DNA from: an uncultured Bacilli bacterium
GTDB lineage: Bacteria; Bacillota_I; Bacilli_A; RFN20; CAG-826
Direction of reading: 5' to 3'
NCBI GenBank assembly: GCA_944363525.1
Contig: CALVUF010000002.1
Span: 186,001 to 250,000, forward strand
Length of the DNA: 64,000 nt
The position numbers and the translations under genes were made by a program. The notes beneath the pieces were generated by a model. That model worked only from the letters and a program-made list of their open reading frames with translations. It was not told the DNA's origin and ran no database searches. This document shows, piece by piece, positions 56,504-61,016 of this stretch (position 1 is its first letter; every line of letters begins with the position of its first letter).

Positions 56504-56539
56504 GCTCTTTGTCTTTTCAAACCGAAATATCTCGGGTTG

Positions 56540-56622
56540 GCGAATCCAAAAAATCGCAGATTTGGGCATTGGCGAATTTAAAAAATCGCATTTGGGACGA
56601 TCCGCGAAATCAAAAAATCGCA
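56540..56622. repeat. Three-copy, 32-bp-period tandem repeat
   Basis: The unit GCGAAnnnAAAAAATCGCA (19 bp) begins at 56540, 56572 and 56604, exactly 32 bp apart. Each unit has short inverted ends (GCGA/TCGC) around an A6 tract. The 13-bp connectors share TTTGGG. Protein-binding iterons or a decaying repeat are both possible. Confidence 0.7.
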
Positions 56623-56926: not shown

Positions 56927-56955
56927 TTGCTTTGCGTAGATTCGGCGTTTATAAT
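56927..56955 (+). promoter_or_regulatory. Promoter of the queuosine operon
   Basis: TTGCTT (56927-56932), 17 bp, TATAAT (56950-56955). Transcription would begin near 56962, at the first base of the candidate riboswitch. Confidence 0.8.
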
Positions 56956-56961
56956 CCCCTC

Positions 56962-57002
56962 TGCTGTTAGTCCTCGGTACCCAGCGTTAAAAAATCAGGA
57001 GG
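56962..57002 (+). promoter_or_regulatory. Candidate preQ1 riboswitch
   Basis: The 5' leader is about 50 nt. Stem GCTG (56963-56966) pairs with CAGC (56982-56985). Its loop holds CCTC (56972-56975), which can pair with GAGG (56999-57002) in the ribosome site. An A-rich segment, GTTAAAAAATCA, lies between. This H-type pseudoknot layout with an A-rich tail and masked Shine-Dalgarno is that of preQ1-I riboswitches, and the genes that follow are preQ1 transport and queuosine synthesis. The sequence is not a textbook consensus match. Confidence 0.55.
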
Positions 57003-57010
57003 CACCTATC

Positions 57011-57523
57011 GTGTCAGACAAACTACTGCTTAAAGTCGCCCAAAACGGAATCGCCGGGGCGATTTATTTTTTGCTATGCCTGCTTTTAAGCGGCATATCC
57101 TACGGGCCGATGCAGATCCGCTTCGCCGAGCTGCTTTGCTTGCTTTGCTTCTTCCGGTCCGATTTCATCAGCGGCGTCACCATCGGCTGCTTCTTGGCTA
57201 ACCTCGGCTCGACTCTGGGCTGGCCGGATATTCTTATTGGGACCGCCGCCACTTTCTTATCCTGCGCCCTTATTTCCTTTGCATCTCCTAGGATGCTTAT
57301 CGCTTGCTTATATCCGATCGCCATTAATGCTTTTGTTGTCGGGGCGGAATTATGCTGGCTTTTAGAGCTTCCTTGGGACACTTATTGGTATCAAGCCGGC
57401 CTCGTCTGTGCCGGCGAGACCATCGCCATCGCCATCGGCTATGTTTTCTTCTTGCTGGTTAAGAGGAACAAAGGGTTCTTCAAGGCCCTTCAGCCCTCCC
57501 GGCATTACCCCTTTAAGTATTAA
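57011..57523 (+). CDS. queT: QueT-family queuosine-precursor transporter (ECF S component)
   Basis: A 170-residue membrane protein of the QueT family, the substrate-binding subunit of an energy-coupling-factor importer for preQ1 or related bases. The family signature ISYGPMQIRFAELLCLL is near residues 30-45. Five or six hydrophobic helices follow, with ANLGSTLGWPDILIGTAATFL. The start is GTG 57011 with AGGAGG 8 nt upstream, which the candidate riboswitch can mask. No queD/E/C/F synthesis genes are seen, which supports salvage of precursor. The shared ECF module must be encoded elsewhere. Confidence 0.82.
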   Translation: MSDKLLLKVAQNGIAGAIYFLLCLLLSGISYGPMQIRFAELLCLLCFFRSDFISGVTIGCFLANLGSTLGWPDILIGTAATFLSCALISFASPRMLIACLYPIAINAFVVGAELCWLLELPWDTYWYQAGLVCAGETIAIAIGYVFFLLVKRNKGFFKALQPSRHYPFKY

Positions 57524-57537
57524 GGGGGTATTTGTAA

Positions 57538-58677
<1,140 letters not shown>

Positions 58678-58680
58678 ACT

Positions 58681-59742
58681 ATGGATATCGAACTGTTTGA
58701 CTTTGCTTTGCCCGAGGAATTGATCGCCCAATCGCCCTTAAAGCAACGGGACGAATCCCGCCTCATGGTCATCGACCGCGAACATCAGACCATCGAGCAT
58801 AAGAAGTTTAAGGACATCATCGATTATTTGGTCCCGGGGGATGTTTTGGTCCGGAACAACACCAAGGTCATCCCGGCCCGCCTAATCGGCACCAAGGTCG
58901 AGACCGGCGGTCATTGCGAGGTCCTGCTTTTAAAGCAACTTCCGGAAAAGGATACCTGGGAATGTCTTGTCGGTGGGGCCCATTCGGTTAAGGTCGGGAG
59001 CAACGTCACCTTTGGCGATGGCTCGTTGACTTGTACCTGCGTCAAGGTCTTGCCCGAAGGGATCCGCCATATGCAGTTCCATTACCAAGGGATATTCCTA
59101 GAGGTTCTGGAACGGCTTGGCAAAATGCCCTTGCCGCCTTATATCAAGAAGCAGGTTGAGGACAATAACGATTACCAAACCGTCTATGCCAAAGTTCCCG
59201 GCAGCGCCGCCGCCCCGACGGCGGGTTTCCATTTCACCCCTGAGCTATTCGAGAAAATCAAAGCCAAGGGGGTTGAGGTGGTGGACATCACCCTAAATAT
59301 TGGTTTAGGCACCTTCCGGCCGGTTAAGGTCAAGGACACTAAAGACCACCATATGCATACTGAGCTATGCGAGATCGATGAGTTGGCGGCGGCCCTCTTG
59401 AATAAAGCCAAAGCCGAAGGCCGGCGGATCATCGCCGTCGGGACGACCTCGGTTAGAACCTTAGAAGCGATATATGGCAAATATGGGGAATTTAGGGCCG
59501 CCAAAGAGAACACTTCGATTTTCATTTCGCCCGGTTATGAATACAAGGCAGTCGATGCCCTCATCACCAACTTCCACCTGCCGAAGTCGACTCTGGTCAT
59601 GCTGGTCTCGGCCTTTATGGGGCGGCAGTGGACACTCCATTGCTACGAAGAGGCCATTAAGGAGAAATACCGTTTCTTCTCCTTTGGCGATTCGATGTTC
59701 ATCTACGGGAAGTTCGATTATTCGAAAGCCATGGATTTATGA
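58681..59742 (+). CDS. queA: S-adenosylmethionine:tRNA ribosyltransferase-isomerase
   Basis: QueA transfers and isomerises the ribose of SAM onto preQ1-modified tRNA to give epoxyqueuosine. It is 353 residues, with the typical opening [43 protein letters not shown] and TTSVRTLE are present, and the C-terminal [18 protein letters not shown] is intact. It starts 3 bp after tgt and overlaps queH by ATGA. Confidence 0.97.
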
Positions 59743-60389
59743 TCGAAGGGAATAAGAAGACCCGTTATTACGATTTCGGGGAAGCGGTCATCGCCTCTTT
59801 GCATGGGGAAAGGAAGAAACTGCTTTTCCACGTCTGCTGCGGTCCCTGCGCCTGTTTCCCCTTAACTTATCTCTGCCCCCATTTCGACGCCACCATATAT
59901 TACTGCAATCCCAATATCTATCCCTCTGAGGAGTATGAAAGACGATTAGGGGAGCTGAAAAAGCTGTTGGCATACCTTAAACGGGACTATGGCTTTGAGA
60001 TCGAATTGGTCGTCCCGCCTTATGACCCCGAGGCTTATAACGAGTTCATTAAGCCCTATGAGCATTTGCCTGAGGGGAGTGAGCGGTGCCATCATTGCTA
60101 TGAATATCGGATGGACGAGGCTTACCAATACGCCGAGGACCATCATTTCGATTACTTCACGACCGTCATGACCGTCTCCCGTCAGAAGTCGAGCGTTGTC
60201 TTAAACGAAGTGGGGCGGAAGCTGGAACTCAAGCACCCCTCCGTCCCTTATCTCTACACCGATTTCAAAAAGAAAGACGGGGCCTTAACGGGCGTCAAAA
60301 TCCGCGACCATTATGGCTTATATAACCAGCAATACTGCGGTTGCCGGGCCTCTTACAACGAATACCTAAAACGGAAGGAAAAGCTCTGA
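59739..60389 (+). CDS. queH: Epoxyqueuosine reductase QueH
   Basis: QueH (DUF208) reduces epoxyqueuosine to queuosine in tRNA. The 216-residue protein has the cluster-binding Cys motifs [24 protein letters not shown] and [13 protein letters not shown]. It replaces the cobalamin-dependent QueG, as common in anaerobic Bacillota. It closes the queT-tgt-queA-queH operon and is translationally coupled to queA. Confidence 0.95.
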
Positions 60390-60497: not shown

Positions 60498-61016
60498 ATG
60501 GTGGATAACGCCCTTAAACCGCTCCGGAAATCTAAGTGGCTGACCCAACGCCAGGCCGCCGAGCTTTTAGGCGTTTCGTTACGTTGCTACCAAGCCTACG
60601 AGAACGAGGTGGCCAAGTGGGGGACAAGGAAATGCCAATGGATGGTTTGTTTCCTGGAAAACTATTCCCCAATCGAGGAGAACAAGGGAATTCTGTCTTT
60701 AGAGCAGATTCGGCAGATAGTCAGCCAGGTCGTATGCGATAAAGACATCGATTTTGTCTACTTATTCGGCTCCTATGCCCAAGGCAAGGCGAATGATCTA
60801 AGCGGCGTCGACCTTCTGATCGATTTCCCAATCATCGGATTGAAATTCTATGGGCTCATCGAGGGACTTAGAGTTTCCCCCCATAAGGTGGTTGACCTCT
60901 TGAGAATTAAAGATCTGCTGGATAACGAACCCCTCCTTCGCAACGTCTTGAAGGATGGGATCAAGGTCTACCAAAGGGTTGGTTTTCCTCCCGATTCGCC
61001 GATCAATAAAAAATAA
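60498..61016 (+). CDS. HTH-nucleotidyltransferase (MNT-like) fusion, altered active site
   Basis: A 172-residue protein. Residues about 8-50 are a Cro-type HTH (LTQRQAAELLGVSLRCYQAYE). Residues about 68-165 are a minimal nucleotidyltransferase (MNT) domain: GSYAQGKANDLSGVDLLID and a late Asp in HKVVDLLRI. The usual catalytic pair SDxD is changed to SGVD (Gly103, Asp105), so transfer activity may be lost or reduced. No HEPN partner gene is adjacent. There is no ribosome site; TTTAAT lies 11 nt before the ATG. GTGCA-type sites flank the gene on both sides and may be its operators. Confidence 0.75.
   Translation: MVDNALKPLRKSKWLTQRQAAELLGVSLRCYQAYENEVAKWGTRKCQWMVCFLENYSPIEENKGILSLEQIRQIVSQVVCDKDIDFVYLFGSYAQGKANDLSGVDLLIDFPIIGLKFYGLIEGLRVSPHKVVDLLRIKDLLDNEPLLRNVLKDGIKVYQRVGFPPDSPINKK

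Follow-up and report, generated by a model that had tools for sequence, protein, structure and literature searches.

We identify a conserved H-type pseudoknot arrangement of 41 bases (positions 56962-57002) directly ahead of queT in a 64 kb window, the whole stretch of DNA analyzed here, which comes from a 1.57 Mb genome of the genus Candidatus Alloenteromonas (placed by NCBI in Bacillota incertae sedis). From sequence comparison, this leader is very probably a translational OFF riboswitch of the preQ1-I class acting on a preQ1 salvage operon. It is class I by fold, in a lineage-specific version that differs from types I-III by an extra C (giving ACC) and a G.U ceiling. The first-pass annotation of this leader holds as an observation, and the core of its interpretation is largely right.

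Results

Genomic setting and architecture of the leader

The queT-tgt-queA-queH operon spans positions 57011-60389 (Table 1), and relatives retain this gene order 3' of the element as far as their loci extend. QueF is absent from 30 of the 31 genus genomes, that of the window among them, and the same holds for full-length QueC; a single genome, G011, has both. Weak QueC matches in other genus genomes are read as partial ones to related ATP-binding proteins. With neither QueF nor full-length QueC in the genome, preQ1 must be imported, and QueT, Tgt, QueA, and QueH should suffice for its uptake and use. QueA and QueH are required only when preQ1 is the base inserted, and the operon is best read as one of preQ1 salvage.

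Table 1. Features of the queT leader and operon (positions in the 64 kb window)
Feature	Positions	Strand	Remarks
Presumed -10 box, TATAAT	56950..56955	+	read from sequence
P1, 5' strand, UGCUG	56962..56966	+	top pair G56966-C56982 is the pocket floor
Loop, TTAGTCCTCGGTACC (DNA)	56967..56981	+	15 bases; UUAGUCCUCGGUACC in RNA letters
Loop U	56967	+	U6 equivalent
Loop anti-Shine-Dalgarno, CCUC	56972..56975	+	
Loop ceiling, GG	56976..56977	+	
Loop A56979-C56980-C56981	56979..56981	+	one C more than relatives
P1, 3' strand, CAGCG	56982..56986	+	
A-rich loop L3, AAAAAA	56989..56994	+	invariant in 10/10 genus copies
P2, 3' strand, UC + Shine-Dalgarno AGGAGG	56995..57002	+	Shine-Dalgarno at 56997-57002; UCAGGAGG ends in it
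queT, queuosine precursor transporter	57011..57523	+	GTG start; PF06177, 120 bits
tgt, tRNA-guanine transglycosylase	57550..58677	+	TIGR00430, 520.6 bits
queA	58681..59742	+	NF001140, 466.4 bits
queH, epoxyqueuosine reductase	59739..60389	+	PF02677, 180 bits

A single short element lies between the TATAAT (56950) and the GTG (57011). The first-pass annotation had proposed the whole leader as a candidate preQ1 aptamer, and a preQ1-I-like aptamer does make up nearly all of it. The same annotation placed the predicted transcript start at the first base of the aptamer. This stands in part: the match is plausible, but the presumed -35 box (TTGCTT, 56927-56932) is weak, a consensus promoter scan returns no sigma-70 site, and the arrangement is absent in several relatives. 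Five of the ten genus copies, including the window's, carry a perfect TATAAT 6-9 bases 5' of P1, and a sixth has TATACT 6 bases 5' of it; in L008 a TATAAT lies 30 bases ahead of P1, and L007, L009, and L011 have none there. By sequence, a transcription start at the edge of the aptamer is plausible and not kept in all relatives.

Conservation and distribution of the element

A search for QueT relatives in 61 genomes matched 29 of them. Among the 31 genus genomes, 15 bear queT and ten of these carry the element, in each case adjoining queT; it was not found in the other five queT-bearing genomes (G002, G003, G011, G016, and G017). Across the ten copies 33 positions are invariant, including CCUCGG and ACC. 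Mean pairwise identity is 0.91 within the element, 0.33 over the 40 bases that precede it, and 0.57 over the 60 that follow, and the QueT protein diverges to 38.5% identity while the element stays near-invariant. This conservation between diverged flanks indicates that the element is real beyond chance.

A covariance model built from the ten genus copies (R1) finds one strong copy per genome (62-72 bits) in ten of the 31 genus genomes, always at queT. Across 279 genomes of the order it adds no other strong copy, and in a sample of 395 genomes of the class strong copies occur only in the window's own genome and in G009. A scan for the core pattern with P1 left free, across the genomes of 84,980 species, yields 12 matches; nine belong to queT leaders of Alloenteromonas, every one of them with P1, and the remaining three are unrelated chance matches that lack it.

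Covariation in P1 and P2

The GCTG/CAGC stem proposed earlier is supported by covariation of P1 across queT leaders. Because the MAFFT alignment (A2) sets the genus's extra C after P1, which makes P1 uncountable there, pairs were counted by a script on anchors that do not use P1, in 47 distinct contexts (at least two false contexts stay in this count, a row for L009 that is not its aptamer and L014, which is no aptamer). P1 pairs 1-5 form in 85-94% of these contexts and in 2-47% after a one-base slide; after slides of two or three bases, single positions still reach as much as 74%. Positions 3 to 5 show several standard pair types, and the outer pair is U.G, C-G, or A-U within the genus. P1 thus covaries strongly, where the first-pass annotation had held that a lack of covariation would count against an aptamer.

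For P2, the support amounts to one evolutionary event between two genera, since the helix is invariant within the genus. Relative to the sister genus g50 the ceiling changes from UG/CA to GG/UC, which amounts to one compensatory pair plus a G-C replaced by G.U; none of 500 shuffles attains the P2 covariation score, and every slid version scores zero. When loops and tails are permuted, own pairs beat swapped ones (0 of 5000 permutations reach them, by a statistic that ignores relatedness); for most rows of genus g1 the own fit is near or slightly above the swapped one, so that g1 is not singled out. The folding energy of the leader alone carries no signal (z 0.33; 119 of 200 shuffles fold equally well), because the program is blind to pseudoknots.

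A pseudoknot between CCTC (56972-56975) and GAGG (56999-57002), hiding the Shine-Dalgarno sequence, had also been proposed. The two strands are complementary, partly trivially because CCUC pairs with any GGAGG, and the Shine-Dalgarno sequence is hidden in either register, but the homologues favor the other one. Pair counts do not separate CCUC-GAGG from CCU-AGG with a bulged C (paired in 98.9% and 100% of cells, respectively). Homologues use CCUUG/CAAGG without a bulge or CCC(A)UG/CAGGG, in which a single base bulges out; as CCU(C)GG/UCAGG, which takes up the Shine-Dalgarno bases AGG at 56997-56999, follows the same register, we prefer it as the better fit, by homology rather than proof.

Relatives in the order and detection by covariance models

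We collected another 120 queT leaders from the order without regard to the element (L095, L102, and L111 were excluded as duplicate genomes). A mechanical scan assigns a preQ1-I-like element to 74 of them, the false match L177 included, and slightly wider rules, with L177 removed and L155, L188, and L101 set by hand, assign one to 76; with 25 known positives added, the tally is 101 of 145 leaders. By eye, and outside these counts, L206 and L214 look broken, whereas the scan seems to have missed elements in L193 and L213. The 76 share P1, UU/UC, a C-rich loop, (A)AC, an A-tract, and the Shine-Dalgarno sequence, a few being type I with UC. The leaders fall into a type I group from other families (UC before P1, CUA tail), a group spread over many genera of this family, with UU..CCUUG..AAC and a CAAGG tail, one with CCC(A)UG and CAGGG in g40 and g25, one with CCUCUG and CAAGGAGG in g50, and the Alloenteromonas form with CCUCGG..ACC and UCAGGAGG.

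Two variations among these leaders deserve mention in their own right. In eight g50 genomes (L179, L182, L183, L190, L192, L194, L204, and L212) CUC replaces AAC at the end of the loop and the tail reads CAGGGAGG; the UC that then precedes P1 is that of type I, and the preQ1-I type may have switched within this one genus. In g40, g25, and g55 leaders (L125, L127, L160, L199, L169, and others), CCC(A)UG or CCC(A)UUG loops face CAGGG or CAAGGG tails, so that P2 carries a bulged A and loop and tail lengths change together.

A second covariance model, built without this genus (R2), has the leader as its best match in the 64 kb window, at exactly 56962-57002 (12.4 bits, E 0.16); on the whole genome it does not report the leader and reports a different place at 12.1 bits. 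On the genus loci it detects eight of the ten leaders (L002, L003, L004, L006, L007, L009, L011, and L017; E 3.4e-5 to 0.13), the best being L017 at 3.4e-5, with three at about 0.002 or below. L005 and L008 were not detected, and the five queT loci judged free of the element gave no match. In the covariance-model check suggested earlier, this ranking and the genus copies speak for an aptamer, the weak score and the missing Rfam match against it. By sequence, homology to preQ1-I elements is clear through intermediates and weak for the window's copy alone.

The Rfam preQ1 families give no match on the leader, even with the threshold relaxed to E 10 over 231 bases; it thus falls short of the RF00522 gathering score of 39, which is no biological criterion, and neither the preQ1-II model (RF01054) nor the preQ1-III model, which we take to be RF02680, matches in it. 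The elements of relatives that RF00522 does report, plainly classical preQ1-I ones among them, score 20.6-27.5 bits, again below the cut-off. Elsewhere in the window, RF01054 matches at 59671-59780 on the minus strand (21.7 bits against a cut-off of 47), antisense in queA/queH coding DNA; we reject this match as chance. In G011 (L234:1596-3604) a classical type I preQ1-I element and a terminator-like hairpin precede queC, a Vut_1 transporter gene, and queF. RF00522 scores this type I element at 22.6 bits, and because so unmistakable an element also falls below the cut-off of 39, the lack of an Rfam match says little for novelty. A literature search found no publication on riboswitches in Alloenteromonas.

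Assignment to class and type

The class I pocket described in PMC11625349 has a G-C floor, a preQ1-pairing C ahead of the 3' strand of P1, a U following its 5' strand, and an A contributed by L3. The leader has the G-C floor, C56981 directly before the P1 3' strand (invariant in 10/10), an invariant U56967 directly after the P1 5' strand, and an A-rich L3 with six invariant A. It also has a loop-tail P2 with one compensatory pair, for which all slides are worse and two registers are possible. L3 is expected to line the P1 minor groove, with A56994 the likely ligand-contacting A by analogy with the same source.

According to PMC11625349, types II and III have AC before the P1 3' strand and type I has UC. 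The leader fits neither rule, because an extra C follows AC in 10/10 copies: CC precedes P1, U56995 occupies the C31 position of type I, and the AC of types II and III is present but one C removed from P1. The first-pass annotation had rightly noted that the loop departs from the known preQ1-I consensus, but it did not name this extra C, the most unusual feature. Its further suggestion of a separate variant class is not needed, since intermediate forms connect the leader to ordinary preQ1-I elements. Types I-III were reportedly defined in a 2014 paper.

Compared with type II (Tte and Bsu; PMC11625349), the leader shares the H-type pseudoknot, the G-C floor, the U after P1, the C before the P1 3' strand, the A-rich L3, the Shine-Dalgarno sequence in P2, and a ceiling pair that joins a loop G to the first base past the A-tract. 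It differs in that the type II AC adjoins P1 and its ceiling is G-C, where the leader has ACC and G.U; the loop here is 15 bases (13 in two relatives). With type III (E. coli yhhQ; PMC10622847) it has in common a pyrimidine-rich loop that pairs with the Shine-Dalgarno sequence, UU after P1, and a translational design, but that type is described there as almost exclusively gammaproteobacterial, with a shorter loop and AC, whereas we find ACC in Bacillota. Type I (Can, with two stacked ligands; PMC8752633) resembles it in the UU after P1, in a 3' tail C that here comes one base later, and in a pyrimidine before the specificity C (C here, U there), and differs in its CUA tail (UCA here), its C31 (U here), and its UC motif (absent here). 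Closest at hand are the g50 aptamers (L062, L137, L143, and others), which share the place before queT, the CCUC loop core, and the AAAAAA..AGGAGG tail; they combine a UG/CA ceiling with AAC before the C of P1, whereas the leader combines GG/UC with ACC.

Discussion

We propose that the leader adjusts preQ1 salvage to the supply of the base, where ligand identity, OFF direction, and translational mode are what we infer. At low preQ1, P2 would be open and the AGGAGG of queT free, so that queT-tgt-queA-queH would be translated and preQ1 imported and built into tRNA. At high preQ1, the ligand would sit between P1, on the floor G56966-C56982, and P2, pairing with C56981 or C56980, and CCU(C)GG would be locked on UCAGG with the Shine-Dalgarno bases hidden. 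The pocket candidates (G56966-C56982, C56981 or C56980, U56967, and A56994) are mapped from PMC11625349. The preQ1-I switch of Listeria queT acts on translation (PMC12519234), and feedback of preQ1 on queT translation would, by analogy, be the natural reading here.

The features that set the leader apart invite other interpretations of its pocket. The extra C, the C in place of A/U before the specificity base, and the G.U ceiling all line the pocket and are fixed in 10/10 copies, and alterations of the pocket may be a sign that ligand preference is new (PMC11625349). An aptamer of preQ1-I fold whose altered pocket favors another 7-deazapurine, such as preQ0 or queuine, or a different stoichiometry nevertheless seems unlikely to us: the operon encodes the two enzymes specific to preQ1 insertion, no QueF is present to use preQ0, and C31, key to the second ligand of type I (PMC8752633), is replaced by U. 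The inserted C and the G.U ceiling, which leave one base more between ceiling and floor, could reshape the pocket into a fourth preQ1-I type with a recognition mode unlike types I-III, possibly with a second ligand or an altered choice between preQ1 and preQ0; we hold this only tentatively and consider it doubtful.

Structures that bind no metabolite must also be weighed. A conserved anti-Shine-Dalgarno structure or a protein-binding site would fit a loop that matches the Shine-Dalgarno sequence anyway and an ordinary folding energy. The A-tract, the floor G-C, the UU, and the C before P1, however, together form the class I ligand-binding set, which homologous queT leaders keep along with P1 covariation, and we judge such a ligand-free role very improbable. 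A chance inverted repeat beside an A-rich Shine-Dalgarno region could likewise go unrecognized by Rfam and fold no better than shuffled sequence (the z of 0.33), yet near-perfect conservation in ten genomes amid diverged flanks refutes it, and a pattern scan that matches only queT leaders save for three chance matches without P1 speaks against it; we give coincidence almost no weight. The preQ1-I riboswitch on preQ1 salvage is the reading we retain.

Our data suggest that, across this order of uncultured Bacillota, the Rfam cut-off misses many of the preQ1-I elements that precede queT. The leader is a natural pocket variant, with its extra C and G.U ceiling, that has close relatives on both sides, and it bears on the question of how an aptamer that ranks among nature's smallest can accommodate one more base in its pocket. 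The locus further links queuosine in these bacteria with preQ1 import.

Two further features of the locus are recorded here. Between prs and the queT promoter, positions 56537-56622 hold a 19-base unit (GCGAATCCAAAAAATCGCA) in three imperfect copies, spaced 32 bases apart. The gene 3' of queH, ahead of ribosomal protein genes (60498-61016), encodes a protein that is HTH-like in its N-terminal part and has an MntA-like nucleotidyltransferase domain, with PF18765 above its cut-off and NF047752 below.
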